A DNA stretch of 39,658 nt from Deltaproteobacteria bacterium (GTDB taxonomy: Bacteria > Myxococcota > Myxococcia > Myxococcales > SZAS-1), in contig JAFEBB010000070.1 in NCBI GenBank assembly GCA_018266075.1, positions 1-39,658 on the forward strand, given 5' to 3'. Under the pieces are notes generated by a model that had not been told where the DNA came from, made no database searches, and worked only from the letters and a program-made list of their open reading frames with translations. Below, piece by piece: positions 10,119-30,031 of this stretch. Positions within the stretch are counted from its first letter, which is position 1; the number at the start of each line of letters is the position of its first letter. Both the position numbers and the translations under genes were made by a program.

Positions 10119-12170
10119 TCAGTGCAGCCCCACGGCCACCAGGCCGAGGTCGATGAGCTTGATTCCAATGAACGGCGCCACCACGCCGCCCACGCCGTAG
10201 ACCGCGAGCGAGCGTCGTAGGAGGGCGGCCGCACCCAGCGGCCGGTAGGTCACCCCGCGCAACGCCAACGGCACGAGCATGATGATGATGATCGCGTTGA
10301 AGATGACGGCCGCCAGGATGGCGCTCTCCGGCGACGCCAGGTGCATCACGTTCAGTGGCGCGATCTCCGGGAAGACGCCCATGAACATCGCGGGGAGGAT
10401 TGCAAAGTACTTCGCCACGTCGTTCGAGATGGAGAACGTGGTCAACGCTCCGCGGGTCATGAGTAACTGTTTACCCACCTCGACGACCTCGAGGAGCTTG
10501 GTCGGGTCGGAGTCGAGGTCGACCATGTTGCCGGCCTCGCGCGCGGCCTGCGTGCCGGTGTTCATGGCAACGCCCACGTCGGCCTGCGCGAGCGCGGGCG
10601 CGTCGTTGGTGCCGTCGCCGGTCATGGCCACCAGCTTGCCCTTCTGCTGCTCCTCCTTGATGAGCTGCATCTTCCGCTCGGGCGTGGCCTCGGCGAGGTA
10701 GTCGTCGACGCCCGCTTCCTTGGCGATCGACGCAGCCGTGCGCGGGTTGTCGCCGGTGATCATCACCGTGCGGATGCCCATGGCGCGGAAGCGAGCGAAG
10801 CGCTCGCGAATGCCGGTCTTCACCGTGTCCTTGAGGTGAATGACGCCGAGCAGCGTGCCGCCATCACTCACGGCGAGCGGAGTCCCTCCCTGGTCGCCGA
10901 TCTTGGCCGCGATCTGCCGGCACTCATCGGCCCACGCAGCGGTACCGCCGAGGTTCTTCAATACGGCGTCCACCGCGCCCTTGCGAATCTGACGATTGCC
11001 GATATCCACGCCGCTCATGCGCGTCTGGGCGGTGAACGGAACGAACGTCGCCGCCGGATCGCGGGCGCGCTCGGGCATTTGATACTTTTGAACCATCAGC
11101 GTGACGATGGAGCGGCCCTCGGGCGTCTCGTCGGCGAGGCTGGCGAGTTGAGCGGCCTCGGCGAGGTCCTCCAGGCGCACCCCGTGCAGCGGCAGCACCT
11201 CGGCGGCCATGCGATTGCCGTAGGTGATGGTGCCGGTCTTGTCGAGCAGGAGGGTGTCTACGTCGCCGGCAGCCTCGATGGCGCGCCCGCTCTTGGCGAG
11301 CACGTTCTTGCGCAGCATGCGGTCGATGCCCGCGATGCCGATGGCCGGCAGCAGTCCGCCGATGGTGGTGGGGATGAGGCAGACGAGCAGGGCGATGATC
11401 GCGGTGAGCCCCAGCTTGGTGCCCGAGTAGATGCCCATGGGGATGAGCGTCACGCAGGCGAAGAGGAAGATAATCGTCAATCCAACGAGCAAGATATGAA
11501 GTGCAATCTCATTGGGCGTCTTCTGGCGCGAGGCGCCCTCCACCAGCGCGATCATCCGGTCGAGGAAGGACTCGCCCGGGTTCACCGAGACCTGCACCAC
11601 GATCTTGTCGGATAGCACCTTGGTGCCGCCGGTCACGGCCGAGCGGTCGCCGCCGCTCTCGCGGATGACGGGCGCGCTCTCGCCGGTGATGGCGCTCTCG
11701 TCCACGCTGGCGATCCCTTCGACGACCTCGCCGTCGCCGGGGATGAGCTGCCCGGCCTCCACGACCACGCGGTCACCCTTGCGCAGCGCGCTCGCCGGCA
11801 CCTGCTCCTCGCCGCCGGCCTCGAGCAGGCGCCGCGCGACGATCTCCTTGCGCATCTTGCGGAGCGTCTCGGCCTGGGCCTTGCCGCGCCCCTCGGCGAT
11901 GGCCTCGGAGAAGTTGGCAAAGACCACCGTGAACCAGAGCCACAGGGCCACCCAGAGGGTGAACCAGTGCGGCGGCGCACCGGCGACGGGCGCGGTGAGA
12001 TCGCGAATCCACAAGCCGGTGGTCATGACGCTGCCCACCTCGACCACGAACATGACCGGGTTGCGGACCATGTACCTCGGCGAGAGGCGCTTGATGCTCT
12101 CGACCAGTGCGGGTCGGAGCAGCGTCGGATTCATGAGTGAGGGGCTCTTGCCCTTCATGGTGGCTTTCAT
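10119..12170 (-). CDS. kdpB: Potassium-transporting P-type ATPase catalytic subunit KdpB
   Basis: The 683-residue protein has all P-type ATPase signatures: the actuator TGES at 162-165, the phosphorylation motif DKTGT with Asp310, the nucleotide-domain KGA segment, [10 protein letters not shown] and the hinge [20 protein letters not shown]. The membrane helices, including [15 protein letters not shown], fit KdpB. It hydrolyses ATP to drive K+ uptake through KdpA. It follows kdpA after 27 bp. The first ATG (12170) is used here; an in-frame ATG four codons later is also possible. Confidence 0.97.
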
Positions 12171-12197: not shown

Positions 12198-13916
12198 TTA
12201 GAAGAACTTCCCATTCATCGCCATGAAGTGCTCGGCGATGGGGCTCAGCGACAAGGCGGGGAAGAAGGTGAGCGCGCCCACGATGAGCACCACACAAACC
12301 AGCAGCCCGACGAAGAGCGCGCCATTGGTGGGGAACGTTCCCGGACCCGGGGCGACGGTCTTCTTGCCCACCATCGACCCGGCGATGCCCATCACGGGAA
12401 TGATCATCAAGAAGCGACCCATCAACATGTCCAGGGCGAGGGTGCCGTTCCACCAGCGGGTGTTCGCATTGATGCCCGCGAAGGCCGAGCCGTTGTTCCC
12501 CGCGCCGCTGGTGTACGCGTAGAGGATCTCCGAGAGGCCGTGCGGTCCGTTGTTGTTCAAGACCCAGTTGCCGTACCAGGTCACCGCGGACCACGCCGTG
12601 AAGCCGAGGATGAGCAGCGGGAAGATGAGGGCGTAGAACATCGCCAGCTTCATCTCCTTCGCCTCGATCTTCTTGCCGAGATACTCAGGAGTCCGCCCGA
12701 CCATCAGTCCGGCGATGAAGACACTCAACAACACCATCACCAGGATTCCGTACATCCCCGCGCCCACGCCGCCGAAGATGACCTCGCCGAGCTGGATGTT
12801 CACCAGCGGCACCAGGCCGCCGAGCGGCGTGAAGCTGTCGTGCATGCTGTTCACGGCGCCGCACGAGGCGTCGGTGGTCACGGTGGCAAAGAGTGCGGAG
12901 TTGGCAATTCCAAACCGTGTCTCTTTTCCTTCCAGGTTACCGGTCGACGTGACGGCCAGACCCTTGAGCGCGGCGTTGGGGTGCGACTCGGCCGCATAGC
13001 AAGCCCAGACGCCGCCGAACCAGAGCAGCGCCATGGCGCCGAACAGCGCCCAGCCTTGCTTGCTGTCGTTCGCCATCTTCCCGTACGCGTAGGTCAGGCC
13101 GCCCGGAATCGCGAAGATGGAGAGCATCTCGAGAAGGTTCGTGATCGGGTTGGGGTTCTCGAAAGGATGGGCGCTGTTGGCGTTGAAGAAGCCGCCGCCG
13201 TTCGTACCCAGCATCTTGATCGCTTCCTGCGACGCGACCGGGCCGAGCGCGATGACCTGATTCACACCCTCCAGGCTGGTGATTTCCTTGTACGCATCGA
13301 AGTTCTGAATCACGCCCTGAGAGACCAGCACCAGCGCGTACACGAAGCAGATCGGCATCAACACGAAGAGCGTGGCGCGGATGACGTCGACCCAGAAGTT
13401 GCCGAGCGTCTTCGGGCCCTCGGGGCCACCGCGCCGGGTGAGGCCGCGCGCGACGGCCAGCGCCACGCCGATTCCGGCGGCAGCCGATGTGAAGTTGTGC
13501 CACGCCAGACCCATCATCTGGGTCAGGTAGCTCATCGTTGATTCGCCGCTGTACGACTGCCAGTTCGTGTTGGTGACGAAGCTCGCCGCAGTGTTGAACG
13601 CCAGGTACGGCTCGACGCCCGCGAGTTTTTGGGGATTGAGCGGCAGATGACCCTGGAGCCGCTCGATGAGGTAGGTGCCGAGCAGCCCGAGCGCGCTGAA
13701 GATCAGCAGCGCGACCGTGTACTCGATCCACTCCTGCTCGCGCGTGGGGTCGACGCCGCAAATGCGAAACGCGAACCGCTCAATGGGGCCGAGCACGCGC
13801 GGCAGGGGCAGCGCCCGGCCTTCGAAGACGTGAAACATGTAGCGGCCCAGCGGTACGGTGACCGCCAGCACCAGCGCGAAGAAGATCGCGATTTGAACCC
13901 AGCCGTTGAAGGACAT
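12198..13916 (-). CDS. kdpA: Potassium-transporting ATPase channel subunit KdpA
   Basis: The 572-residue polytopic protein has the SKT-like fold repeated four times, with filter-type segments such as TNTNWQSYSGE, MLGTNGGGFFNANSAHPFENP, FTPLGGLVPL and SGAGNNGSAFAGINAN. The end is LFVGLLVCVVLIVGALTFFP followed by SPIAEHF. It forms the K+ entry path of KdpFABC. The start ATG at 13916 is 9 bp from the kdpF stop. A degenerate copy of this protein's C-terminus occurs at ~17093-17226. Confidence 0.97.
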   Translation of the reverse strand: MSFNGWVQIAIFFALVLAVTVPLGRYMFHVFEGRALPLPRVLGPIERFAFRICGVDPTREQEWIEYTVALLIFSALGLLGTYLIERLQGHLPLNPQKLAGVEPYLAFNTAASFVTNTNWQSYSGESTMSYLTQMMGLAWHNFTSAAAGIGVALAVARGLTRRGGPEGPKTLGNFWVDVIRATLFVLMPICFVYALVLVSQGVIQNFDAYKEITSLEGVNQVIALGPVASQEAIKMLGTNGGGFFNANSAHPFENPNPITNLLEMLSIFAIPGGLTYAYGKMANDSKQGWALFGAMALLWFGGVWACYAAESHPNAALKGLAVTSTGNLEGKETRFGIANSALFATVTTDASCGAVNSMHDSFTPLGGLVPLVNIQLGEVIFGGVGAGMYGILVMVLLSVFIAGLMVGRTPEYLGKKIEAKEMKLAMFYALIFPLLILGFTAWSAVTWYGNWVLNNNGPHGLSEILYAYTSGAGNNGSAFAGINANTRWWNGTLALDMLMGRFLMIIPVMGIAGSMVGKKTVAPGPGTFPTNGALFVGLLVCVVLIVGALTFFPALSLSPIAEHFMAMNGKFF

Positions 13917-13925
13917 GTCGATTGC

Positions 13926-14015
13926 CTAGAAGCGCTCGGGCTTGATCAGCGCGTAGACGAGGTAGACGGTGAGGCCGACGGTGAGGAGCGCGCCAATGAG
14001 GTATTCGGTGCTCAT
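13926..14015 (-). CDS. kdpF: KdpF, small stabilising subunit of the Kdp pump
   Basis: A 29-residue ORF reads MSTEYLIGALLTVGLTVYLV then YALIKPERF. One TM helix ending in the (L/I)xKPERF tail is diagnostic of KdpF. It is preceded on the minus strand by GAGG about 10 bp before the ATG and ends 9 bp before kdpA. KdpF stabilises the KdpABC complex in the membrane. Confidence 0.95.
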   Translation of the reverse strand: MSTEYLIGALLTVGLTVYLVYALIKPERF

Positions 14016-14023
14016 GGTTGGCC

Positions 14024-14107
14024 TCAGAGCCGGTCGCAGCTGCGCGTGTATGCCCAGCAGATTGCGAAGAACACGCAGGTTGTCAGCACAAAGACAAAGT
14101 CGATCAT
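14024..14107 (-). CDS. 27-residue single-TM peptide upstream of kdpF
   Basis: The ORF reads MIDFVFVLTTCVFFAICWAY then TRSCDRL, stopping 8 bp before the kdpF start. The hydrophobic helix followed by an (A/Y)TRxC(D/E)RL end resembles small proteins I associate with kdp operons of other high-GC bacteria; that recollection was not checked. The ribosome-binding site is weak, so expression may depend on coupling. Its role, perhaps as a further small Kdp subunit, is inference. Confidence 0.65.
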   Translation of the reverse strand: MIDFVFVLTTCVFFAICWAYTRSCDRL

Positions 14108-14143: not shown

Positions 14144-15742
14144 CTAGAACTTCACGAGCAGGGCCAGGTTGATGCGGTTCTCGTCCTGCACCAGATCCGG
14201 TGCCCAGCCCGGGACCGCGGAGCCGGCTGGGCCGGTGGTGACCTCGGAGCCGGACACGGTGTTCGACTCGCCGGGCGGCGTCATGCCGCTGTGGCCTGCG
14301 AAGTAGGGAACGCTTGCGTGGCGGTAATTGAACTCGAACCGGAACGTCACATACTGCTCTGGCATGAAGTCGATGGTCCCCGAGGAGTCCCAGGCGTGGA
14401 ACTGGTCGCCGGGGTTCTCCGTGAAGTAGGGCGTGCCCGAAGCAGCGGTGGCGCCGTTGATGGGCGGCATGAGCACCAGGTAGCGGCCCGGGTTGCTCAT
14501 CCAGCCGCCGCCGAGCGTGAGGCCGAACATGTCCCGGTAGAACCACAGCCGGTTGTAGACCATGAAGCCCGCGAAGCCCTGCTGTGGCGAATCGGGCGAG
14601 CTGGAGAAGCAGCTCACACCCCCGCCAGACTCACAGCCGAGGTCGACGGTAATCGAGAAGGCGCCCTTGCTGACGAATGCCGCCGGAGCGTCGAGGTACT
14701 TCACCTGGATGCTGTCGTCGGTGTGGTAGCGGACGCGGTCCGGGTTGCCCAGCGTGTCGGTGCCGAGGGCGTACTGATTACCCAGGATGGAGAGCCAGCC
14801 GTAGGGACGCCAGAGCACCTGCATGCCGAAGCCGGGGCGATTGTTGAATTTGCCATATGCCTGCCAACCGTTGACCACCCAGGGCTCGATCTTCAGCTTG
14901 TCGGTGGGAAAGATCTGGATCCGCATGCCGTTGAAGAACCACGGCGTATTCGACGACACGTACGACGGCTGATACGACCAGTTGTCGAAAGTGTAGTAAC
15001 TAAACAGCCCCACGTAGGACATGAAGATGCCGGCCTGGATGTTGATGCCGTGCAAGACGTTGAGGTGGTAACCGCCGTACGCCTCCGAGATGTAGCGGTA
15101 GGCGTCGGCGAGGTCCCACTGGCCCTTCACTGGGCTCGCGTCGTTGCGCGGGGTCATGGTGGAGAACATCCCGAACTGGGTCATGACCCGCATCTGCACA
15201 TTGGCGTAGTGGAAGTCGCCGCCCACGCCGAGCTGCTGCACCTGGAATTCGTCGGTGCGGCCGCTTTCGGAGGTGCCGCTCAACGTGTGATCGACGGGAT
15301 GGTTGAAGTCGTCGATGTAGCTGGTGTCCACGCGGAACTCGCCCGTGAAGAACTTGGTGTCGAGCGGCGAGTCCTTGGTGCGGGGGTTGCCGTTGAGCCA
15401 GGTGAAGTCCGCAAACGCGAAGGGCGCCGCGGGCTCCGGCGTGATGGCGGTCGCGGCCGAGAGCGAGGCTGGAGCCTGCTGTTGAGAAAGAGGAATCGCT
15501 GCCGGCGTCGGGGCGGCAGGCGCGGGCGCTTGCTCGATTGCGGGCGGCTGCTGAGACGCAGGCGTCACGGTGGGCGCCGGCGGCGGTGCCGTGGGCGCCG
15601 AAGCGGTCGGTGCAGTGGGCGGAAGCGCAGCGGAGGCCCCCGAGGCGGGAGAACCGGCGTCGGCCGCAGGAGCTGCGCCCTGGGCCAGGGCAGCAGTGGA
15701 ATCCAGGAGAAGTACGAGCGTGATGGCGAGGTTGCGGGTCAT
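14144..15742 (-). CDS. Outer-membrane beta-barrel porin (BBP2/OmpL-like), first gene of the kdp operon
   Basis: Starting at the ATG at 15742 gives 532 residues with a signal peptide (MTRNLAITLVLLLDSTAALA, cleaved before QGAAP), in contrast to the longer upstream frame. Residues ~20-105 are a Pro/Ala-rich linker. The rest has the features of the putative porin-2 family seen next to kdp genes in several phyla: FADFTWLNGNPRTKDSPLDT, FTGEFRVDTSYIDDFNHPVD and many amphipathic strands rich in Trp/Tyr. The barrel ends in LLVKF, with the usual C-terminal Phe. It likely supplies K+ or small solutes across the outer membrane for KdpFABC. A sigma-54-type promoter lies at 15769-15784. Confidence 0.85.
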   Translation of the reverse strand: MTRNLAITLVLLLDSTAALAQGAAPAADAGSPASGASAALPPTAPTASAPTAPPPAPTVTPASQQPPAIEQAPAPAAPTPAAIPLSQQQAPASLSAATAITPEPAAPFAFADFTWLNGNPRTKDSPLDTKFFTGEFRVDTSYIDDFNHPVDHTLSGTSESGRTDEFQVQQLGVGGDFHYANVQMRVMTQFGMFSTMTPRNDASPVKGQWDLADAYRYISEAYGGYHLNVLHGINIQAGIFMSYVGLFSYYTFDNWSYQPSYVSSNTPWFFNGMRIQIFPTDKLKIEPWVVNGWQAYGKFNNRPGFGMQVLWRPYGWLSILGNQYALGTDTLGNPDRVRYHTDDSIQVKYLDAPAAFVSKGAFSITVDLGCESGGGVSCFSSSPDSPQQGFAGFMVYNRLWFYRDMFGLTLGGGWMSNPGRYLVLMPPINGATAASGTPYFTENPGDQFHAWDSSGTIDFMPEQYVTFRFEFNYRHASVPYFAGHSGMTPPGESNTVSGSEVTTGPAGSAVPGWAPDLVQDENRINLALLVKF

Positions 15743-15768: not shown

Positions 15769-15784
15769 TGCTCAAACCGTGCCG
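15769..15784 (-). promoter_or_regulatory. Sigma-54-type promoter of the porin-kdp operon
   Basis: The minus strand reads CGGCACGGTTTGAGCA. The -24 element CGGCACG matches TGGCACG except the first base. The -12 element keeps the invariant GC with correct 12-bp spacing (GAGCA versus TTGCA). The predicted transcription start is ~15758, about 16 bp before the ATG. The palindrome at 15869-15883 is centred 106 bp upstream of the -12 GC. Confidence 0.6.
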
Positions 15785-15868
15785 GACGTGACGCCGCGCA
15801 CTTGCGCCGAGGCGGAAGCGCCATCGCGGAGACATTCCCTGCAGGATGCGAGGTCTGCGCCGCGCAAC

Positions 15869-15883
15869 CGTGCAAGTTGCAAT
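15869..15883. promoter_or_regulatory. Palindromic activator site between the porin-kdp operon and the TIR-like gene
   Basis: CGTGCAAGTTGCAAT matches CGTGCA-N3-TGCACG at 10 of 12 positions. It sits in the 247-bp divergent intergenic region, 73 bp from the -12 GC of the rightward sigma-54-type promoter and 106 bp from that of the leftward one. A second short palindrome, GCAGA-A-TCTGC, follows at 15886-15896. Confidence 0.6.
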
Positions 15884-15935
15884 ATGCAGAATCTGCTGCC
15901 GCGACGCGTCGCTGATGATTGCGCTGCGCTGCCCG

Positions 15936-15951
15936 GGGCATCGCGGTTGCA
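15936..15951 (+). promoter_or_regulatory. Sigma-54-type promoter of the TIR-like gene
   Basis: GGGCATCGCGGTTGCA has GGGCA at -24 and a perfect TTGCA at -12 with correct spacing. The predicted start is ~15962, 28 bp before the ATG. Confidence 0.6.
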
Positions 15952-15989
15952 CCGAGGTGCGGCCGGGCTGCAACGGAGAGAAGCGCGAC

Positions 15990-16796
15990 ATGTCCACGCT
16001 GCTCGCCACGCCGCTGAAGCAGGTCCGCGTGCTCATCGTCCTTCCGCCCGAGGCGCGCGCGCTCGGCGAGGCGCTCCGCGAGTCGCTGTCGAGCCGCGCC
16101 CGCGTGGTGCTCGCGCTTCGCAGCGAGCGCCCGGACGCCGCACGGGCACTCGATATGGAGCTCGATCAGGCTGACTTCGCAGTCCTGCTTGCTTCGTCGC
16201 CGAGTTGCGCGGGGCTCGAGCTCTTCGACATCGGACTTGCCGTGGGAAAGCTGGGCGCAGAGCAGACGATGATCGTCTGGAGTGATGACGCCGAGCGCCG
16301 GGCCTCACCGATGCTCCGCGAGCTCCCGCACCTGGTCACCCAGGGTGGCCAGGCCGACGCTGGCCAACTGGCCCTCTCGATCTCCGAGCGGATTGCAGAG
16401 CGCTTCAAATGGCTCGAGCTGGATGCGATCGAGCGCGTGCGGCGGGGGCTCAGCTCGGAGCAGGCGCAGCTCGCGCGGGTGCACCGGCAGGTGCTGAGCC
16501 TCGAAGATGTGCTGCCTGCCGACTTCATGCTCCAGCCCACCTCGCCGCAGAGGCTCTGCTATTGGACGCACCGCGGACCGCACCGGTCGGTGCGACTGGT
16601 CTTCGACGACGTCCGAGGCGCACACCAAGCGCTGCCACCGGAGCTGCTCACGCACGCCGCGGTCCGATGCGTGCCCGAGCACACATCCGACGGTCGGCGG
16701 ATGTTTCGCTTCACCTTCTTCGACCCCGACACCGAGGCCGTGGCGCTCACCTTCCTGGCGCGCGACCTCGACGTGCTGGAGACCGGGCTCACCTGA
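15990..16796 (+). CDS. TIR-like nucleotide-binding domain protein with unknown C-terminal domain
   Basis: The ATG at 15990 follows GGAGAG by 9 bp and gives 268 residues; a longer frame upstream would run through the promoter region. The N-terminal ~135 residues form an alpha/beta unit: a VRVLIVLPPEA strand, ALDMELDQADFAVLLAS, LFDIGLAVGKLGAEQTMIVW (78-97) and then a helical end. This resembles the TIR-like predicted nucleotide-binding family (FELG..IGKLGRE motif), but the usual Glu of FELG is Asp80. Residues ~150-268 are an unrecognised domain with several strands (RSVRLVFDDV, RMFRFTFFDP). No signal peptide or TM helix, so it is cytoplasmic. The gene has its own sigma-54-type promoter within the potassium-linked cluster. 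The TIR-like assignment is moderate. Confidence 0.75.
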   Translation: MSTLLATPLKQVRVLIVLPPEARALGEALRESLSSRARVVLALRSERPDAARALDMELDQADFAVLLASSPSCAGLELFDIGLAVGKLGAEQTMIVWSDDAERRASPMLRELPHLVTQGGQADAGQLALSISERIAERFKWLELDAIERVRRGLSSEQAQLARVHRQVLSLEDVLPADFMLQPTSPQRLCYWTHRGPHRSVRLVFDDVRGAHQALPPELLTHAAVRCVPEHTSDGRRMFRFTFFDPDTEAVALTFLARDLDVLETGLT

Positions 16797-16832
16797 AGAC
16801 GAAGCAGGTTGCAAGGTCCCGGGGCGCGCGGT

Positions 16833-16847
16833 CGTGCAATGCGCACG
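16833..16847. promoter_or_regulatory. Palindromic activator site upstream of the 50-aa membrane protein
   Basis: CGTGCAATGCGCACG matches CGTGCA-N3-TGCACG at 11 of 12 positions, with perfect outer arms CGTGC/GCACG. Its centre is 53 bp before the GC of the -12 element at 16893. Confidence 0.65.
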
Positions 16848-16879
16848 AGCGCCGGGCACCGGTTCCTCGCGAGGCGCGC

Positions 16880-16895
16880 TGGCACGCGACGCGCA
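16880..16895 (+). promoter_or_regulatory. Sigma-54-type promoter of the 50-aa membrane protein
   Basis: TGGCACGCGACGCGCA has a perfect -24 element (TGGCACG) and the invariant -12 GC followed by A. The predicted start is ~16906, 18 bp before the ATG at 16924. This is the best -24 match in the window. Confidence 0.65.
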
Positions 16896-16923
16896 ATGTC
16901 ATGCCCACGGGTTCGAGGGCACC

Positions 16924-17076
16924 ATGGCGGCGCGCGGCGAGGGCAGTGAGGTCATCCCGGGAATGCTCCTCGTCCTCTTCCTGCTCGCGTGTTTGATCCA
17001 CGCCGCCGTGACATGCAGCCGGCCGCCGGATGCGGCTGCCCAGGCGAGCCCCGCGACCCAGGTGCACTTTCGTTGA
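16924..17076 (+). CDS. 50-residue single-pass membrane protein
   Basis: The ORF encodes a short polar start, one TM helix (GMLLVLFLLACLIHAAV) and a Pro/Ala-rich tail ending VHFR. An internal ATG at codon 14 could also be used. I do not recognise it. Support for a real gene is the near-consensus sigma-54-type promoter and palindromic activator site immediately upstream, with no other gene they could serve. It may be a small modulator of a transporter or kinase; this is inference. Confidence 0.6.
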   Translation: MAARGEGSEVIPGMLLVLFLLACLIHAAVTCSRPPDAAAQASPATQVHFR

Positions 17077-17092
17077 GAGATGCGGCTTGGCG

Positions 17093-17226
17093 TCAGCGCG
17101 GCGGGGCGTGCATCTCGACGTGCTCGGGGATTGGGCCGCGCATGAACGCGGGAAGGAAGCTGAGCCCGGCCACGATCAGGGCGACACCCAACATGAGCCC
17201 GGCGTACTGAAGGTGCCCGGGCCGTC
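17093..17226 (-). pseudogene. Remnant of a kdpA 3' end, frameshifted
   Basis: One minus-strand frame reads LQYAGLMLGVALIVAGLSFL, then PAFMRGPIPEHVEM, then a stop. It aligns with the end of the intact KdpA (LFVGLLVCVVLIVGALTFFP...SPIAEHF). Immediately upstream, another frame reads GPGTFST, matching GPGTFPT of KdpA, so a frameshift separates the two parts. Upstream stops exclude a full gene. It is probably left over from a lost or rearranged second kdpA. A functional 33-residue peptide starting at the ATG at 17194 cannot be excluded. No further KdpA similarity is seen in 17227-17419. Confidence 0.6.
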
Positions 17227-17419
17227 AGGATGCCGACCTTGCCGGGTCAAAGGTCCAGCAAGCGCGAGCCCCGACGCCAACCCGAGCCTCGTGCCCCACG
17301 GCGATCAGGACGTGAACCAGGTCGTGGACTCGAGCTTCCGTGAGCTGGAAGCGTGGTCGCATCGCGATCCATGGCTCCAAGCGCTGCGCCCCTCCTGCGC
17401 GTGCAGCCGCAGCAGCGCG

Positions 17420-18013
17420 TCACAGCGGCGGTACAGCAAGGTGAGGGCTCTCCGCTTGAATCGGCGCCTCGCGCTCGAGCCCCAGGATCGGCGCGGCGGG
17501 AAGCTTCAGCTCCACATCCACGTAGGGGTGCACCCGCAGCCCGCCCAGCAGCATGCGATAGGGCGTGATGCCGAAGTCGGGCTGGTACACGCGCGCCTTG
17601 GCTCGGAAGTGATCGCCCTGCGGTGCCACCAGGAAGCCCAGGGGCTGCTCCCTCCCGTGAAGCGTGAGCCGGCCGAGCACCTCCACGCACTCGCCTCGCC
17701 GCACGAAGTAGGTGGAATGGAACACGATGTCGCGGTGGCGCGCGGCCTCGAGGACCTGGGCGGCGATGGCGCGCTCGATGGTCAGGCGTTTGGCCTCAGG
17801 GAGGAGCGCCGGCTCGGCGCCGGTCTCGCGCCGCTCGCCCACAACCACGATCGAGCCGGGATCGAACCGCGCCTCGATGGCGCCGCGACGCTGGTCCACG
17901 TCCACGGCGAACCGGGACACCCTCAGCACCAGATCGTAACCCAGTACGGCCAGCGGACCTTCCTTGAAGGTGCGCACTGTGCAATCTGCAGTGGTGGGAT
18001 CGAAGCGGAACAT
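17420..18013 (-). CDS. YceI-family protein
   Basis: The ATG at 18013 has GGAGGT seven bases upstream and gives the typical YceI beginning (FDPTTADCTVRTFKEGPLAV), so it is preferred over the ATG at 18028. The 197-residue protein has lipocalin-like YceI features: DLVLRVSRFAVDVD, ...FDPGSIVV, the HRDIVFHSTYFVR strand and VLGRLTLHGREQPLGF. YceI proteins bind isoprenoid-like ligands and are often stress induced. No signal peptide is visible, so this one is probably cytoplasmic. It is the third gene of an operon after the PtsN-like gene (18066). Its start overlaps a perfect 21-bp inverted repeat. Confidence 0.8.
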   Translation of the reverse strand: MFRFDPTTADCTVRTFKEGPLAVLGYDLVLRVSRFAVDVDQRRGAIEARFDPGSIVVVGERRETGAEPALLPEAKRLTIERAIAAQVLEAARHRDIVFHSTYFVRRGECVEVLGRLTLHGREQPLGFLVAPQGDHFRAKARVYQPDFGITPYRMLLGGLRVHPYVDVELKLPAAPILGLEREAPIQAESPHLAVPPL

Positions 18014-18030
18014 GGAGGTGACCTCCATGT
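18010..18030. promoter_or_regulatory. Perfect 21-bp inverted repeat over the yceI start and ribosome-binding site
   Basis: The arms ACATGGAGGT and ACCTCCATGT pair perfectly around one central base. In mRNA the arms contain the Shine-Dalgarno GGAGGT and both candidate start codons (18028 and 18013). A hairpin would hide the ribosome-binding site; as DNA it could be an operator. Confidence 0.55.
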
Positions 18031-18065
18031 CGAAACGTGATCGCGCCCAGGAGCCGCGGCAAGCC

Positions 18066-18560
18066 TCAGAGGCCGGGGCGCAACCGCCGCGAGGTCTCGT
18101 CGTCGAGCGCCGCGTCGGCGGTGTTGATGATGTCGTTGAGCTGCTTCGCGTCGCCTGCCCCGAGCATGGCCTCGCGCACCGCGGGCTGGCGCAGCAGCTT
18201 GCTCAGCCGGGCGAGGACCTTGAGGTGCAGGCCCTTGGTGTCCGGCGGAGCGGCCACGGCGAAGAAGATCCGGCTCGGCGCGCCGCCCTCTGGCGAGAAC
18301 GCCACGCCCTCGGGCGCCAGGCCTACGGCCACCGAGATGTCCGAGAGGTTGGCCAATCGGCAGTGTGGAATGGCCACGCCATCTTCGAGCGCGGTGGTGC
18401 CAATCTCCTCGCGCGCGCGCAGGGCGTTGAAGAGCTCGCCGCGGCCCGAGGTGGCTCGCCCCTGCAGCGCGGTGGACAGCTCTGCCAGCACCTCGTCGCG
18501 ATCGTGCCCTTGCAGGCGGAGGATCACGGCGGAGGGAGCGAGGTAGTCGGCAATGCGCAT
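18066..18560 (-). CDS. PTS EIIA type-2 protein, PtsN (EIIA-Ntr)-like
   Basis: The 164-residue protein matches the fructose/mannitol/Ntr EIIA fold, with the phosphorylatable His66 in EDGVAIPHCRL. The pattern RLQGHDRDEVLAELSTAL...LFNALRAREEIGTTAL...LFFAVAAP(P)...HLKVLARLSKLLR is that of PtsN. There is no sugar-permease gene nearby. In E. coli, PtsN (EIIA-Ntr) binds the K+ uptake protein TrkA and stimulates KdpD, which fits the surrounding potassium genes. It is the second gene of an operon: it starts 16 bp after the 104-aa gene and is followed 52 bp later by yceI. The start at 18560 is chosen from homology; the longer frame to 18872 overlaps the upstream gene. Confidence 0.85.
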   Translation of the reverse strand: MRIADYLAPSAVILRLQGHDRDEVLAELSTALQGRATSGRGELFNALRAREEIGTTALEDGVAIPHCRLANLSDISVAVGLAPEGVAFSPEGGAPSRIFFAVAAPPDTKGLHLKVLARLSKLLRQPAVREAMLGAGDAKQLNDIINTADAALDDETSRRLRPGL

Positions 18561-18576
18561 GGCGGGCTCCTTCCCG

Positions 18577-18891
18577 TCAAACAGGCACGGGCACCCTCTC
18601 ACGTCCAAACAAGACGATGTAGGCCGCGAGGACCCGCGCTGTGAAGCCGTCGCGCTCGGCGGGCGGGAACGCCTGGGCGAGGAGCTCCGGGCTGTCGTCG
18701 AGGAAGAGCGTGGAGCCCACGCGCTCGAACACCTCCTTGAGCACCTGCGAGCACGAGAGACAGTTGGAAGCTCGCTCGAGCTCCCGCTGCGCGATCGCGC
18801 GCGCGCGCGGGAGGTCGCTCGCGCCCAGCACGTGGACCGCGACAGGCGGCATGGGTTCCGGAGGCTCGGCATCAGGGATTCGCATCGTCAT
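18577..18891 (-). CDS. 104-residue protein of unknown function with a CLSC motif
   Basis: First gene of the operon with the PtsN-like and YceI genes. After a Pro-rich start the sequence is mostly helical (LPRARAIAQRELERASNCLS, CSQVLKEVFERV, FTARVLAAYIVLFG) with a CxxC (CLSC) near residue 45. It has no signal peptide or TM helix. The ATG at 18885 has a better spaced AAGGAA than the one at 18891. I do not recognise the family. Its sigma-54-type promoter and tandem palindromes place it in the same regulon as its neighbours. Confidence 0.7.
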   Translation of the reverse strand: MTMRIPDAEPPEPMPPVAVHVLGASDLPRARAIAQRELERASNCLSCSQVLKEVFERVGSTLFLDDSPELLAQAFPPAERDGFTARVLAAYIVLFGRERVPVPV

Positions 18892-18920
18892 TTCCTTTCT
18901 TCGTCACGAAGGGAGGGTTC

Positions 18921-18936
18921 TGCATGGGGCAGGCCA
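18921..18936 (-). promoter_or_regulatory. Sigma-54-type promoter of the 104-aa/PtsN/YceI operon
   Basis: The minus strand reads TGGCCTGCCCCATGCA: TGGC at -24, correct spacing, and ATGCA at -12. The predicted start is ~18910, about 20 bp before the gene. Confidence 0.6.
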
Positions 18937-18976
18937 GTCTCGACGCGCCACGGCCCGCCCCCATGCGAGAGCGCGC

Positions 18977-19013
18977 CGTGCAATCTGCAGGGACCCACGT
19001 TGCGCCCTGCACG
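18977..19013. promoter_or_regulatory. Tandem palindromic activator sites, 22 bp apart
   Basis: CGTGCAATCTGCAGG (18977-18991; 11 of 12 consensus positions) and GTTGCGCCCTGCACG (18999-19013; 9 of 12) are centred 22 bp apart, about two helical turns. The nearer centre is 62 bp from the -12 GC of the operon promoter. Confidence 0.6.
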
Positions 19014-19053
19014 TGCTCGGACCCGCCCCTGCGCGGTCCGAGCGAAGCCACGG

Positions 19054-19413
19054 TCAGGCCAGGGCGCGGCGAACCACGTCCTCGAGGTCGCGGGCGGACA
19101 GGCGGCCCATCGCCCCGCCCACCACCTGGCCGCCGCGGATGACAATCAGCGACGGCACCTCGGTGCTCACCCACGCGCCCCAGCGCGCGTCGAGCTCCTC
19201 GGGTGCAACCCGCGCAATGTGGAGCGGGTGGGGCAGTCGGTCCTGCACGATGGCGATCTGCTCATCCTCGACGGGGAACAGCCCCGGCGGCCGCGAGTAG
19301 ATGACCCTGGGGGCCTCCGCGCTCGACGAGGGGCGCGAGCGGCGAAAGAAGAGGCGGCGCGGGGCGGGCTCGCGAATGGGCGAGCGATGCGGCGGCGGCT
19401 TGAGGGTCGGCAT
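19054..19413 (-). CDS. Thioredoxin-fold protein lacking the CxxC motif
   Basis: The ATG at 19413 is preceded by GGAGA and gives 119 residues. After a basic, Arg/Pro-rich tail of ~45 residues, the protein shows the last half of a thioredoxin fold: IAIVQDRLPHPLHIARVAPE, then the cis-proline strand VSTEVPSLIVIRGGQVVGGA and a closing helix LSARDLEDVVRRALA. The active-site CxxC region is replaced and the protein has no cysteine, so it cannot be a classical thioredoxin. It may be a chaperone-like or binding protein. It is cytoplasmic, with its own sigma-54-type promoter. Confidence 0.7.
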   Translation of the reverse strand: MPTLKPPPHRSPIREPAPRRLFFRRSRPSSSAEAPRVIYSRPPGLFPVEDEQIAIVQDRLPHPLHIARVAPEELDARWGAWVSTEVPSLIVIRGGQVVGGAMGRLSARDLEDVVRRALA

Positions 19414-19446
19414 GGCGGTCTCCTGTTTGCGTCGGCAAACGGGAGT

Positions 19447-19462
19447 TGCATCGGGCGCGCCA
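19447..19462 (-). promoter_or_regulatory. Sigma-54-type promoter of the thioredoxin-fold gene
   Basis: The minus strand reads TGGCGCGCCCGATGCA: TGGCGCG at -24 and ATGCA at -12 with exact spacing. The predicted start is ~19436, 23 bp before the ATG. Confidence 0.65.
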
Positions 19463-19505
19463 GGCCTTTCTGCGGGCCGGTGCGCCCGTTTCGCGAGCGC
19501 GCGAT

Positions 19506-19542
19506 CGTGCAAGGGGCACGGGCTCGCCGTGCAGGCTGCGAC
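19506..19542. promoter_or_regulatory. Tandem palindromic activator sites, 22 bp apart
   Basis: CGTGCAAGGGGCACG (19506-19520; 11 of 12) and CGTGCAGGCTGCGAC (19528-19542; 9 of 12) are centred 22 bp apart. The nearer centre is 65 bp from the -12 GC at 19448, nearly the same geometry as at 18977-19013. The second site ends just before the APC transporter stop codon. Confidence 0.6.
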
Positions 19543-19546
19543 TCGC

Positions 19547-21532
19547 CTACGCCGCGCGCGTCGGCCGGGCCTCGAGCACGCGCACGGGCAGCACCATGGC
19601 CTGCTGGCCGGCGAACTGCAGCCGCCGCTGGATGGCGTAGGCTGTCTCGTTGTGGAGCAGCCGCTGGAACCAGCGCTCCTCTTCGAAGACCAGCTTGCCG
19701 CTGAAGAACACCACGCGGGGGAACTCGCGCGCGACCTGCAGCGCGACGGCGATGGCTGCGGCCACGGGCTCCGTTCCCAGGTCGCTGCGCGCCGAAGCGG
19801 CCACGCCCAGGCCCCGGCAAAGCTCCACGTACTTGGCCAGCGCGTCCTCGGTCTGGTTCTTCACCCGCTCCACTTCCTCCTGGTCCTTGAACGTGGCCGA
19901 GTCCACCACGCCCACCGAAATGAAGATGAAGTTCTTGAAGTAGCCGGGGAAGACGCGCTGGATGTTGAGGATGATGTGCACGCCCAACCCCGAGAAGCCG
20001 CTCACCAGGATGGCGGCGGTGGGCGCGTTCTTGTCGAGGGCGATCTCCGGCTTGCCCGCGGGCGAGGGCAGCACCTCGAGGATCTCGTCGAGGCGCTTCA
20101 GGTTTCCGCGCACGCTCAGGTAGTGGCGCTTGATGAGCAGGCACGCGATGACCAGCACGCCGGTGACCACCACCGTGAGCCAGCCGCCCTCGAAGAACTT
20201 CTCCCGCACCGTGACGATGAGGATGGAGAAGCAGAGCAGGAAGCCCACCATGTGGATGATGATGTTGCGTCCCCAGTCGTCGAAGCGCTTCCGGTTGCTG
20301 AACCAGAAGCGGATCATCCCCGCCTGGGAGAGCGAGAACGTCACGAAGACGTTGATCGAGTACATCGTCACCAGCGCGTCCACGCTCCCGTGCGTGTACC
20401 AGAGCATCACCGCGCTCGCGCCGCCCATGAGCATCACGCCGTCCTGCATGGTGAGTCGGTCGGAGAGCGAGCCGAAGCGGTGCGGCAGCCAGGAGTCGTG
20501 GGCCATGTTGGCCATCACCCGGGGGCCGTCCACGAAGCCCGCCTGGGCGGCCACGAAGAGCAGGGCGCCCTCGGCTACCAGGGTGACCACCACGAACCAG
20601 CGCCCCACGGGCACGCTGCCCAGGTGCCAGCTCCCCGCGAGCGTCTCCAGCATGCTCGCGTTCATGGTCTTTCCCTCCACCGGCTGCACGTGGAGCAGGA
20701 GGTACGCGAGGATGATGCCGGCGGCGGTCACCGCCAGGCTCACCGCCATGTAGGCCATGGTCCGCTTGCCCGTTTCGACCTTGGGCTCGCGCATGATCTG
20801 CAAGCCGTTCGAGACGGCCTCGATGCCGGTATAGGTGCCGCCGCCGAGGCTGTAGGCCTTGAGCACCAGCGACATCATCCCCAGCATGCCCAGCGTCCGC
20901 AGCCCACCTTGAAACCCCGAGGTCACCTCGTGGGTCACAGCGGGGAACTCGCCGGCCCGGCTGGCCACGGCCCACACCAGGGTGATCCCGTGCGTGACCA
21001 AGAAGAGCACGAAGATGGGCGCCAGGATCGTCACCGACTCGCGCACCCCGCGCAGGTTCATGAGCACCAGGATGCCCACCACTGCGAACTCCACCAGCAG
21101 CTTGGTGTTCGCCCAGGGCCCGGGCAGGAACGAGTAGATCTGGTCCGCGCCCGACGCCACCGACGTGGTGATCGTCAGCACGTAATCCACGAGCAGCGCC
21201 GAGCCGGAGACCACGCCGAAGGTGTCGCCCAGCAGCCGCGTGGCGACTACGTAGCCGCCGCCACCAAAGGGGAAGTGCTCGATGATCTTCGAGTACGCGA
21301 AGGAGATGATGAAGACGGTGAGCGCTGTGGCCAGCGCCAGCACCACCGCCAGGTAGGTGTGCTCCCCGAGGGTCTTGAAGGTCTCCTCGGGGCCGTACGC
21401 GGAGGACGAGAGGCCGTCGGCGCCAAGGCCCACCCACGCCAGAAAGGCGATGAGCGAGACCCGGTGGAAGATGTGCGGGTCCTCGAGGTCTTTGGGTTTG
21501 CCGAGGAGGACTTCCTTGAACCGCGACGCCAT
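19547..21532 (-). CDS. KimA/YdaO-like APC-superfamily potassium transporter
   Basis: Starting at the ATG at 21532 (MASRFKEVLLGKPKDL) gives 661 residues. About 12 TM helices occupy residues ~25-490 and a soluble C-terminal domain follows. Family signatures of KimA (B. subtilis YdaO) are present: ADGLSSSAYGPE (38-49), FPFGGGGYVVATRLLGDTFG, SALLVDYVLT followed by SGADQIYSF, NLRGVRES, GGGTYTGIEAVSNGLQ and a VFVTFSLSQAGM segment. KimA imports K+ with H+ and is controlled by c-di-AMP in Firmicutes; that control cannot be inferred here. The soluble end contains AILVSGFSGLGVHIILNIQR and VVFFSGKLVFEEERWFQRLL, like the KimA tail. Substrate K+ is supported by neighbouring kdp and ptsN-like genes. A general amino-acid permease is the alternative. 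Confidence 0.8.
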   Translation of the reverse strand: MASRFKEVLLGKPKDLEDPHIFHRVSLIAFLAWVGLGADGLSSSAYGPEETFKTLGEHTYLAVVLALATALTVFIISFAYSKIIEHFPFGGGGYVVATRLLGDTFGVVSGSALLVDYVLTITTSVASGADQIYSFLPGPWANTKLLVEFAVVGILVLMNLRGVRESVTILAPIFVLFLVTHGITLVWAVASRAGEFPAVTHEVTSGFQGGLRTLGMLGMMSLVLKAYSLGGGTYTGIEAVSNGLQIMREPKVETGKRTMAYMAVSLAVTAAGIILAYLLLHVQPVEGKTMNASMLETLAGSWHLGSVPVGRWFVVVTLVAEGALLFVAAQAGFVDGPRVMANMAHDSWLPHRFGSLSDRLTMQDGVMLMGGASAVMLWYTHGSVDALVTMYSINVFVTFSLSQAGMIRFWFSNRKRFDDWGRNIIIHMVGFLLCFSILIVTVREKFFEGGWLTVVVTGVLVIACLLIKRHYLSVRGNLKRLDEILEVLPSPAGKPEIALDKNAPTAAILVSGFSGLGVHIILNIQRVFPGYFKNFIFISVGVVDSATFKDQEEVERVKNQTEDALAKYVELCRGLGVAASARSDLGTEPVAAAIAVALQVAREFPRVVFFSGKLVFEEERWFQRLLHNETAYAIQRRLQFAGQQAMVLPVRVLEARPTRAA

Positions 21533-21653
21533 GGACGGAGAGGCTCCTCGGCTGCGCCAGGAGGATCCCGGCGCCACGCCAACCGGCCGCCGCTTGCTCG
21601 CTGCCCTCCCAGGCGAGCGCCCGCACAGCCGTGACCGATGACTGGCAGACGAT

Positions 21654-21712
21654 CGTGCAAGGTGCAAGAGGCGAGTGCTCGCTCCCGAGCGAAGGGGCTT
21701 GCATTCTGCAAA
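21654..21712. promoter_or_regulatory. Two palindromic activator sites upstream of the KimA-like gene
   Basis: CGTGCAAGGTGCAAG (21654-21668; 11 of 12) and CTTGCATTCTGCAAA (21698-21712; 9 of 12) are centred 44 bp apart, twice the 22-bp spacing seen elsewhere. A separate inverted repeat, GCTCG-CTCC-CGAGC, lies between them. No convincing sigma-54 element was found between here and the ATG at 21532; the best candidates have the wrong spacing or a poor -12. Confidence 0.5.
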
Positions 21713-21728
21713 CGCGCGGGCCGGAAGG

Positions 21729-23135
21729 TCAGGCCGGGGCACCGGGTTCGCCCACCGGGACGTCGCCCCGGGGCAGCCAGAGCGCGGCCACCACGCGGTT
21801 GCCCTCGCTGGCGATGCTCGCCTTGCCGCCGTGGGCGCGGGCGATCTGCTCCACGATGTAGAGCCCCAGGCCGAGGCCCCGGCTCTTGCCGGCGGCGCGG
21901 CGGAAGGGGTCGAAGAGGTGCCGGGCCGCCTCGGCGGGGATGGGGCCGCCGCGGTTCTCCACCTCCAGCCGACAGCCGCCGCGGTCGTCGCACACGCGGA
22001 CCTCCACCGGCTGGTCCGGCTCGCCGTGGTCCAACGCGTTGGAGATGAGGTTTCCCAGCGCCTGCGCGACGCGGTGCGGGTCCCACTGGCCCTTGCCGTG
22101 GCCGTCGAGGAAGCGGCCCTTCACCCGGCCGGGATGCGTGGCCTCGAACTCCTCGACCACCCGCGCGGCCACCTCGCACAGGTCCACCGGCCGACGCTCG
22201 ATGGGGATGCCCTCGCCCAGCCGCACCCGGGTGAAGTCGAAGAGCACGTTCACGATCTCGCCGATGCGCTCGGCGCTGCGGGCCGCCCGGCGGGCGGCGC
22301 CGCGGGCCGCTTCGGGGAGGTCGGGGCGGCTCACGAGCTGCTGCGCCGAGAGCAGGATGGCCTGCAGCGGGTTGCGCAGGTCGTGGCCGACCACGGCGAT
22401 GAGCCGCTCCCGGAACCGCTGGGCGCGCCGGGCGTGGGTCACGTCGCTGCCGAGGTTCAGCCACTCCACCACCCGGCCTTCGCGGTCGCGCACCGGCACC
22501 GAGCGCACGTGGACATCGCGGTAGTCGCCGTCGTGGCGGCGCACGCGGTACTCGTCCTCGACCTCGTGGCCCTCGGCCACGGCGCTCGACACCCGGCCGG
22601 CCACGCGCGTCCGGTCAGCGGGGTGCACGGCGGCGAGCCAGCCGTCGGCCCGGGCCAGGGTGCGCGCGGAAAGGCCGGTGAAGGCCCGCAGGCCGGGGTT
22701 GTCCGCGAGCGGGCGGCCCCGGCCGTCGGTCAGCCAGACCAGCTCTGCCGAGCCCTGGGCCAGCGCCCGGAAGCGCGCCTGGGCGCGGTCGTGGACGCTC
22801 TCTGCTGCGAGCGCGAGCAGCTCGGCGTCGAGGGCGCGCTCGAGCGCGACGAGCTCGTCCAGCGACACGCGCGCCCGCTGGTTCCCGATGAGCCGGTCCA
22901 GGACGGTGCGCAGCGCCGCGAACGCCTCGAGCCTGGCGTCGCGGTCGCTGGCCGACGGTGCGTCCAGAGCATGGGGAAGGGCGTCGAGCACGCGGGCGAT
23001 GCCGGCGCGCTGAGCGGCCGCGCTGCGTCCCGCGAGCCGCGTCCAGGCGCGGAGGACGTGCTCCCGGTTCGCGCGCAGCCACGCCGCGAGCCCCGACGCG
23101 CCCGGCGCCTGAATTCCTTCGGATTCCCGATCCAC
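21729..23135 (-). CDS. Soluble PAS-domain sensor histidine kinase
   Basis: The GTG at 23135 is taken as start because upstream codons look non-coding and include a palindrome of the local regulon; the frame stays open to 23255. It gives 468 residues: an N-terminal helical domain (~15-120, WLRANREHVLRAWTRLA...), PAS at ~122-238 (ELVWLTDGRGRPLADNPGLR, then GLNLGSDVT-like end), HisKA with His251 in VVGHDLRNPLQAI, and HATPase (NLISNALDHG, GLGLGLYIVEQIA). There are no TM helices. No response regulator is adjacent. Its position beside the sigma-54-linked cluster makes it a candidate input for that regulon, which is inference. Confidence 0.82.
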   Translation of the reverse strand: MDRESEGIQAPGASGLAAWLRANREHVLRAWTRLAGRSAAAQRAGIARVLDALPHALDAPSASDRDARLEAFAALRTVLDRLIGNQRARVSLDELVALERALDAELLALAAESVHDRAQARFRALAQGSAELVWLTDGRGRPLADNPGLRAFTGLSARTLARADGWLAAVHPADRTRVAGRVSSAVAEGHEVEDEYRVRRHDGDYRDVHVRSVPVRDREGRVVEWLNLGSDVTHARRAQRFRERLIAVVGHDLRNPLQAILLSAQQLVSRPDLPEAARGAARRAARSAERIGEIVNVLFDFTRVRLGEGIPIERRPVDLCEVAARVVEEFEATHPGRVKGRFLDGHGKGQWDPHRVAQALGNLISNALDHGEPDQPVEVRVCDDRGGCRLEVENRGGPIPAEAARHLFDPFRRAAGKSRGLGLGLYIVEQIARAHGGKASIASEGNRVVAALWLPRGDVPVGEPGAPA

Positions 23136-23530
23136 CCACGCCCCCCGGGAAAGGTAGGGAGCGCCGCGCGCGCGGGACAGCCCGGCTGCCGATCGCAAGG
23201 CCCGGTGCGGGGCAGCGCGACTCGTGCACAGAGCGCGCGTCCACAGGGCGAACATCGGGCTGCGCGGTGTTCACTGCTGCGAGCCCGGTTGGGGAAGCGC
23301 GTGCCGACGCGAGCGCGCATTGGGTACAACGTCACCGCCGCGCGCGGTCCCTGGTCATCCCAAGCGGGGGGGACCGGGGAAGAAACCGCCGCGGCAACCC
23401 CAGACCGAGGAGGTCTGCAGAAACGGCGAGCGTCGGAGCGTTGGAGCCGTGGAGCGTTGGAGACTGAGCTCCACCGTTGGCTGTTTGTACGAAACCGCCG
23501 AGGCGCTGCTCGCCGTTCGCGTCGGCCTTC
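23136..23530. other. Intergenic region between the PAS kinase and the DUF3108 gene
   Basis: About 395 bp without a supported gene. Besides the palindrome at 23223 it holds a perfect inverted repeat, CAGACC-GAGGA-GGTCTG (23401-23417), and a direct repeat GGAGCGTTGGAG at 23435 and 23451 (period 16). No promoter for a rightward gene is evident. Confidence 0.6.
23223..23237. promoter_or_regulatory. Palindromic site upstream of the PAS kinase
   Basis: CGTGCACAGAGCGCG matches CGTGCA-N3-TGCACG at 10 of 12 positions and lies ~88 bp before the proposed GTG start. No clear sigma-54 element lies between, so this is the weakest intergenic member of the family. Confidence 0.4.
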
Positions 23531-26919: not shown

Positions 26920-27696
26920 TCACCCGCCCACGAGCGGCAAGAGCGCCGCGTGGATGCGGCCGTTGGTGGCCACGGTGTCGAAGCCGTAGATGTCGTGCGG
27001 CGCGCCGCTACTCGCGCTCACCTTGCCGCCGGCTTCCTCGACGATGAGCGCGCCCGCTGCGGTGTCCCACGCGTGCAGGCCGCGCTCGAAGTAGGCCTCG
27101 AAGCGCCCACAGGCGACGTCGCAGAGATCCAGCGCCGCGCAGCCGTCCGAGCGCACCGCCTCGACGACGCCGAGCACATTCGCGAGCCGCTGCAGCTGCG
27201 CGGAGTCTGCCTTGCGACCGGAGTAGGTGAGTGCGCTCGCGACCATCGCGCGATCGAGTGTCTCGATGTTGGACACGTGGATCGCCGCGCCGTTCAAGGT
27301 CGCGCCGTGTCCCTTCTCGGCCACGAAGAGCTCGTCGGCGCGCGCGTTGTACACCGCGCCGAGCACGACCTTGCCGTCGACGGCGAGCGCGAGCGACACG
27401 CACGAGCGCCCGTAGCCGTGCGCGTAGTTCTTGGTGCCATCGAGCGGATCCACGGTCCACAGATGCTTCGCGTTGCGGTCGCCGTCGGTGCCTTCTTCGC
27501 CCAGAATCTCGTGACCGGGGTGGCGCGCGCGGATGAGCTCAACCACGAGCGCCTCGCAGGCGCGATCGACGTCGGTGGTGATGTCCGCGGCGCCCTTGCG
27601 GTCCACGGTCGCGGTGCCTACGCGCTCGCGCTGGATCTTGCCCGCGCCGCGCACGGCCTGGAGCAACGTCTCGCGAAATGCGTCGAGCTGGCTCAC
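26920..27696 (-). CDS. Inositol-1-monophosphatase family protein
   Basis: The start is a GTG whose last bases overlap the stop of the flippase-like gene (GTGA), giving 258 residues; longer frames upstream are out of register with homology. Metal and catalytic motifs of the IMPase superfamily are present: LGEEGTD, WTVDPLDGTKNYAHG and the C-terminal AWDTAAGALIVEEAGG. It hydrolyses inositol phosphate, or a related sugar phosphate, with Mg2+. The co-transcribed inositol-3-phosphate synthase makes myo-inositol the natural product, though CysQ- or FBPase-like activity cannot be excluded. Confidence 0.9.
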   Translation of the reverse strand: MSQLDAFRETLLQAVRGAGKIQRERVGTATVDRKGAADITTDVDRACEALVVELIRARHPGHEILGEEGTDGDRNAKHLWTVDPLDGTKNYAHGYGRSCVSLALAVDGKVVLGAVYNARADELFVAEKGHGATLNGAAIHVSNIETLDRAMVASALTYSGRKADSAQLQRLANVLGVVEAVRSDGCAALDLCDVACGRFEAYFERGLHAWDTAAGALIVEEAGGKVSASSGAPHDIYGFDTVATNGRIHAALLPLVGG

Positions 27697-29992: not shown

Positions 29993-30031
29993 GAACTCTC
30001 TCCGAGCCCCGCGGGTGCTGGTGTGATTCGC

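Follow-up and report, generated by a model that had tools for sequence, protein, structure and literature searches.

A putative sigma-54-dependent potassium regulon around the kdp operon of a myxobacterium and its candidate NtrC-type regulator

Introduction

Sigma-54 control of the Kdp potassium transporter has a precedent in Desulfovibrio vulgaris, where DVU3334 is the sigma-54 response regulator of its own kdp operon, DVU3334-3339, which comes with a split KdpD (PMC3333781, PMC4641369); such control is thus already known. The present work concerns the kdp operon and its neighbours in a stretch of 39,658 nucleotides (nt) of myxobacterial DNA from a soil-type bacterium (contig JAFEBB010000070.1 of assembly GCA_018266075.1, hereafter the window), which is the entire contig C70 of a 7.84-Mb genome with a guanine-plus-cytosine (GC) content of 70%. 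An initial annotation of the window had described a recurrent palindrome next to sigma-54 promoters and had considered a sigma-54 potassium regulon to be new, a claim that does not hold in view of the D. vulgaris system. From the sites, promoters, conservation, co-occurrence and orthology that were computed, we think that the palindromes would be the enhancer sites of one NtrC-type response regulator that replaces KdpE and drives a sigma-54 potassium regulon, a reading to which we give a probability of roughly 0.8.

Two further lines of work are relevant for this comparison. In Myxococcus xanthus, live prey induced kdp more strongly than any other operon, and kdpAB goes up by log2 8.7-10.3 with 0.2 M NaCl, which is ~400- to 1,200-fold; the authors took the regulator to be KdpDE and were aware of no previous report about these genes (PMC5857379). 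KdpD exerts a serine-kinase brake, and there are systems in which the serine kinase and the histidine kinase are separate chains (PMC11018627).

Palindromes and sigma-54 promoters in the window

Sigma-54 elements were scored as GG-N10-GC (-24/-12) over 11 consensus positions, and palindromes by their mismatches to the consensus CGTGCA-N3-TGCACG, with a spacer of 3. The five sigma-54 elements of the initial annotation were confirmed at 9, 9, 10, 9 and 10 of 11, and each is the best GG-N10-GC in the 160 base pairs (bp) upstream of its gene. On the reverse strand, CGGCACGGTTTGAGCA (15769-15784, 9/11) precedes the porin-kdpFABC-kdpD-kinase operon, its GC being 27 nt from the ATG at 15742. Divergently, on the forward strand, GGGCATCGCGGTTGCA (15936-15951, 9/11) has its GC 39 nt from the ATG at 15990 of a gene that had been called TIR-like, and farther along the same strand TGGCACGCGACGCGCA (16880-16895, 10/11) stands with its GC 29 nt from the ATG at 16924 of a 50-amino-acid (50-aa) membrane protein. 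The other two elements are again on the reverse strand: TGGCCTGCCCCATGCA (18921-18936, 9/11; GC 30 nt from the ATG at 18891), which serves the operon of a 104-aa protein, a PtsN-like protein and a YceI-like protein, and TGGCGCGCCCGATGCA (19447-19462, 10/11; GC 34 nt from the ATG at 19413), which serves a thioredoxin-like gene. The background density of such elements in the genome is 2.3e-4 per bp per strand.

The six palindromes that had been reported, at 15869, 16833, 18977, 19506, 21654 and 23223, are all present. Four of them indeed match 11 of 12 positions, with one mismatch each: CGTGCAATGCGCACG (16833-16847), CGTGCAATCTGCAGG (18977-18991), CGTGCAAGGGGCACG (19506-19520) and CGTGCAAGGTGCAAG (21654-21668), the last one upstream of the kimA-like gene, where a weak copy with 3 mismatches, CTTGCATTCTGCAAA (21698-21712), follows at 44 bp. 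The copy with 2 mismatches between the divergent porin-kdp and TIR-like promoters, CGTGCAAGTTGCAAT (15869-15883), is common to both; its form, CGTGCA-N3-TGCAAY, also precedes kdp in relatives. Second copies 22 bp farther than the 18977 and 19506 sites do exist, at 18999-19013 and 19528-19542, but they are weak, with 3 mismatches each. The porin-kdp promoter had been taken for an outlier, 106 bp from its palindrome; a nearer, weak copy with 3 mismatches, CCTGCAGGATGCGAG (15838-15852), reduces this distance to ~74 bp, similar to the other promoters. This copy is 31 bp from the 15869 one, and pairs at 31-32 bp recur upstream of kdp in relatives. As for the palindrome at 23223, which had been proposed as a weak member of the regulon, it has 2 mismatches, overlaps the start of the open reading frame (ORF) of a PAS kinase, has no detectable sigma-54 element and is indistinguishable from chance, and we do not retain it.

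At up to 3 mismatches the window holds 52 palindromes against 52.3 expected by chance, so the signal resides in the near-perfect intergenic copies and not in the count. With at most one mismatch there are 29 palindromes in the whole genome, against 61 for a reversed-pattern control. Four of these 29 fall within 5 kb in the window, every one of them intergenic; ORFs contain 24 of the remaining 25, and none of these 25 has a sigma-54 element scoring 9/11 or better within 20-160 bp. The near-perfect sites elsewhere being almost all in ORFs and devoid of good sigma-54 elements, the palindrome is not enriched genome-wide and the regulon would be the cluster in the window. The enrichment foreseen by the initial annotation is thus absent, which confinement to one cluster explains, and the expected grouping of near-perfect sites with sigma-54 promoters is seen in the window but not at the other 25 sites. 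A scan of the whole genome with two loose patterns combining palindrome and sigma-54 element gave 22 matches, of which only four join a palindrome of at most 2 mismatches to an element of at least 9/11, all four in the window. A weak candidate for an additional target is a TTGCACG half-palindrome with a 10/11 sigma-54 element before a 63-aa ORF (G000 C2:9159-9219, L232).

The candidate regulator and its distribution

In relatives, the gene of an enhancer-binding protein (EBP) usually lies beside porin/kdpFABC-kdpD-kinase, next to the separate kinase. It encodes an NtrC-type response regulator formed by a REC domain, an AAA domain with the GAFTGA motif and a Fis-type helix-turn-helix ending in ARILGIDASTLWRKRKKY. 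No EBP gene was found on the contig of the window. The genome contains a single orthologue, at C12:96184-97521, which is 63% identical to the kdp-linked EBP of locus L058, the next paralogue being at 49%; among the five best matches that were compared, this orthologue alone has the kdp-type recognition helix LGIDASTLxRKRxxY. One EBP gene had been expected to go with the sites, and a single one was found, kdp-linked in most relatives though unlinked to kdp here. The genome thus has an EBP with GAFTGA, and it also has rpoN.

The comparison set comprised 146 relatives; this genome is the only one of its family there and shares its order with typical myxobacteria. Of the 146, 97 were found to have kdpA. 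The EBP and a high-identity Kdp occur together in 82 genomes and are both missing from 60, while two have only Kdp and two only the EBP. In addition, 66 of the 68 EBP-Kdp pairs that share a contig are within 30 kb of each other. There are also kinase and EBP-family pairs without kdp nearby, in Opitutae and other Verrucomicrobia (L089-L102); two of three such genomes checked lack any kdpA match, and in these bacteria the pair may act on a different output.

Searched by tblastn with a real KdpE-like protein, the window gave no match. The same approach finds an OmpR-type KdpE next to kdp in Desulfovibrionaceae loci devoid of the EBP, and KdpE is absent from the EBP-positive kdp loci examined with one exception, G161. 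In that genome the kdp locus (L178) has the palindrome pair and, immediately before the porin, a KdpE-like OmpR regulator and a kinase; kdp may be under double control there.

Conservation upstream of kdp and kimA

For conservation, we searched for a composite consisting of a palindrome with at most 2 mismatches followed, 40-95 bp on, by GG-N10-GC of at least 8/11, over 1.5-1.6 kb of sequence preceding kdpA (0.4 kb, truncated, in a single case). Among genomes with the EBP, 25 of 34 regions ahead of kdp have it; among EBP-negative genomes, none of 8 kdp loci does, two of these loci being from the same order (G014 and G043); the background is 1.2% of other 1.6-kb segments and 0.6% of shuffles. 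The distance from palindrome to sigma-54 element in the kdp regions of relatives is mostly 76 bp (+/-2), and a second, weaker palindrome is often found 31-32 bp off, as with the 15838/15869 pair of the window. If kdp has a porin gene in front of it, the promoter stands upstream of that gene, and otherwise upstream of kdpF. The arrangement extends to G184, from the family of Desulfovibrio piger (Desulfovibrionaceae), which has a split KdpD and an EBP at 59% identity, and in which CGTGCATTTTGCAAA lies exactly 76 bp before TGGCCCCGACCTTGCT.

Conservation upstream of orthologues, which the initial annotation had asked for, is therefore seen at kdp and, in part, at kimA. A telling case for the latter is G030, which has the EBP and no Kdp: the EBP and the kinase are clustered there with a KimA transporter, and between EBP and kimA lie two palindromes 31 bp apart together with a 10/11 sigma-54 element that faces kimA. 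This cluster without kdp ties KimA, and hence potassium uptake in general, to the EBP independently of kdp.

Genes of the cluster

The operon is read on the reverse strand and its first gene (14144-15742) encodes a BBP2-type porin (PF07642, E 2.8e-39), with orthologues near kdp in relatives. A 27-aa membrane ORF (14024-14107) and the 29-aa kdpF (13926-14015), both recognized from the sequence, are followed by kdpA (12198-13916; TIGR00680, 764 bits with a cut-off of 388) and kdpB (10119-12170), which has ~60-77% tblastn identity to the kdpB of relatives and keeps TGES and DKTGT. The ORF at 9510-10109, with a coding GC pattern and placed between kdpB and kdpD, is a putative kdpC by position. The short KdpD of 381 aa (8274-9419) consists of the KdpD sensor and Usp domains (PF02702, PF00582) and has no histidine kinase domain; it scores 373 bits with NF038185, under the cut-off of 550, and keeps a Walker-A-like GFAAGVGKT (G-X5-GKT). 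The operon ends with a separate membrane histidine kinase (6448-8274), HAMP-PAS-HisKA-HATPase by Pfam, whose orthologue adjoins the EBP in relatives.

On the forward strand, divergent from the operon, a gene at 15990-16796 encodes a 268-aa protein. Its earlier TIR-like label could not be confirmed: the protein had no match in Pfam, NCBIfam or the PDB, no relative was detected in 60 genomes of the order, and its single-sequence structure model has low confidence, with a predicted local distance difference test (pLDDT) score of 51. The 50-aa protein (16924-17076, forward strand) has a single transmembrane segment according to its translation. The next operon, on the reverse strand, is headed by the 104-aa protein (18577-18891), without Pfam match, and continues with the PtsN-like EIIA protein (18066-18560; PF00359, E 1.6e-23, TIGR01419 score under the cut-off) and the YceI-like protein (17420-18016; PF04264, E 9e-8). 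On the same strand, the thioredoxin-like gene (19054-19413) encodes a cysteine-free 119-aa protein without Pfam match, which is at most of thioredoxin fold, its PDB thioredoxin matches being weak (E 0.3-1). The transporter at 19547-21532, also on the reverse strand, is of KimA type: it matches KimA in the PDB (6s3k) with E 7.7e-53 over residues 5-485, and it is 65% identical to its G030 orthologue. Elsewhere in the window, at 26920-32824, genes for a myo-inositol-1-phosphate synthase, an inositol monophosphatase-family protein, a GH3-family protein and a DegT aminotransferase are grouped, which suggests an inositol-linked pathway.

Proposed mechanism

The binding, phosphorylation, signal and sigma-54 dependence that we infer would fit together as follows. 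Low potassium or osmotic stress would activate the membrane kinase, whose gene follows that of the short KdpD; this kinase is likely the partner of the EBP and would phosphorylate it. Hexamers of the EBP would then bind one or two palindromes, placed 40-100 bp ahead of the -24/-12 elements, and drive the sigma-54 polymerase to open the promoters of the porin-kdpFABC-kdpD-kinase operon, the 268-aa protein, the 50-aa membrane protein, the 104-aa/PtsN-like/YceI operon and the thioredoxin-like gene, and probably that of kimA. The kinase gene being within the kdp operon, the circuit would form a self-reinforcing loop. EIIA-Ntr proteins act on potassium uptake, which makes a PtsN-like member of the regulon attractive, although the protein in question scores under the NCBIfam cut-off for PtsN. 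The short KdpD is probably a serine-kinase brake on KdpB: since it keeps G-X5-GKT, and KdpB keeps TGES, the brake can persist on its own chain, and the inhibitory serine-kinase function may thus survive on a chain apart from the histidine kinase.

Weighing of the alternatives

Activation of a local sigma-54 regulon by an EBP, with porin-kdp included, had been the central proposal of the initial annotation and is supported by the sites, their conservation and the EBP orthologue. Several facts weigh against it as a whole or in part. There is no palindrome near the EBP gene at C12 in its own genome. The composite, at the thresholds set, is missing from 9 of the 34 EBP-positive kdp regions, some of which have short upstream sequence, and the relatives are phylogenetically correlated, so that these counts cannot be taken as independent; a stronger argument than the composite counts is the clean contrast with the kdp loci devoid of the EBP. 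The kimA-like gene, a probable target, has two palindromes, but no GG-N10-GC above 6/11 was found upstream of it, and the palindrome occurs at a minority of kimA loci in EBP-positive genomes, some of them shared with a divergent kdp. Conservation was tested for kdp and kimA, the other four promoters being seen in this genome alone. It might then be thought that only porin-kdp is controlled by EBP and sigma-54, and that another regulator binds the neighbouring promoters, or that these are mere by-products of cluster duplication, with no functional regulon: conservation supports kdp only (kimA in some genomes), the distances from palindrome to promoter vary from 47 to 67 bp among the others, and the second copies are weak. 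We consider this unlikely, since each of the other four promoters joins a 9-10/11 sigma-54 element just before a start codon to a palindrome with 1-2 mismatches, a combination that the two loose composite patterns find nowhere else in the genome.

The identity of the regulator and of the polymerase could also be disputed. NmpR, the NtrC-type regulator of the myxobacterial hypoxia regulon, has a related dyad, GCGCA-N5-TGCGC, as its binding site ahead of sigma-54 promoters, among them that of a universal stress protein gene (PMC11841059), and the stress genes of the window could in principle reflect an oxygen response under this or a similar regulator. NmpR was rejected, because the spacer is 3 in all sites of the window and 5 in its dyad; moreover, the kdp-linked EBP co-occurs with the palindrome and the kdp loci without the EBP lack it, which leaves an oxygen response very improbable. 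Kdp control is classically by KdpDE, and in a genome of 70% GC sigma-54 matches of 9/11 arise by chance at ~5% of the places where a ribosome-binding site precedes an ATG, so one could regard both palindromes and -24/-12 elements as GC-rich accidents next to a sigma-70 promoter. That would leave unexplained a composite conserved with a fixed spacing of 76 bp, a short KdpD without kinase domain, and the lack of KdpE near kdp in the window and in nearly all EBP-positive loci, and we give it almost no credit. One EBP acting on the palindromes through sigma-54 is the reading that we prefer.

Comparison with known systems

If this is correct, KdpE would be replaceable wholesale by an unrelated class of activators with a different promoter logic, in which expression requires the activator. 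With a named regulator, an enhancer defined together with its fixed spacing and a natural control, namely relatives with Kdp and without regulator or sites, the control of the pump becomes directly testable in a tractable bacterium, and several proteins of uncharacterised role receive a probable signal, potassium or turgor. More broadly, it seems fairly probable to us that in most Kdp-bearing myxobacteria, and in scattered members of other phyla, high-affinity potassium uptake is under a sigma-54/NtrC-type switch with brake and kinase on separate chains, and that this switch has expanded, in the present lineage, into a potassium/turgor regulon including KimA, an outer-membrane porin, a PtsN-like EIIA protein and uncharacterised stress proteins.

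A literature search returned nothing direct on sigma-54 control of Kdp in myxobacteria. Within the literature that could be searched, it is apparently new that the sigma-54/EBP arrangement prevails in Kdp-bearing myxobacteria; within the same limit, this would also hold for the paired enhancer, conserved and fixed in its spacing, for the EBP assignment and, in this genome, for the sites at no fewer than four further promoters together with an unlinked regulator.

In comparison with the KdpDE regulon of Escherichia coli and other bacteria, the transporter is the same and the stimuli are presumably the same, whereas the OmpR-type KdpE and sigma-70 of that system would be replaced here by another class of regulator and sigma-54, and its full-length KdpD by a short KdpD. 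The split chains of PMC11018627 have their counterpart in the short KdpD-Usp protein and the separate membrane kinase, with G-X5-GKT and TGES kept; that paper treats transcriptional control via KdpE, whereas a sigma-54 regulator is proposed here. The NmpRSTU hypoxia regulon of M. xanthus resembles our case in its NtrC-type regulator, its paired dyads upstream of sigma-54 promoters and its stress genes, and differs in the dyad itself, in the distance within pairs, mostly 14-15 bp, and in stimulus and targets (PMC11841059). The DVU3334 system is alike in its NtrC-type response regulator, its sigma-54 promoter, kdpFABC and a KdpD split into a sensor-Usp ORF and a kinase ORF; by its description, however, DVU3334 is part of the kdp operon and has one listed target operon, whereas here the regulator is unlinked and at least five promoters are concerned. 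Another member of the Desulfovibrionaceae (G371, locus L197) has its kdp genes in the D. vulgaris order; its EBP is only 45% identical, and it has, at ~8740-8860, the paired palindromes CTTACATTTTGTAAT/GTTACAAAATGTAAG of the form TTACA-N3-TGTAA and the promoter TGGTACAAGCCTTGCT, while locus L171 of the same family resembles the type of the window. This same geometry written in different letters makes the two types a candidate for co-evolution of enhancer and regulator.

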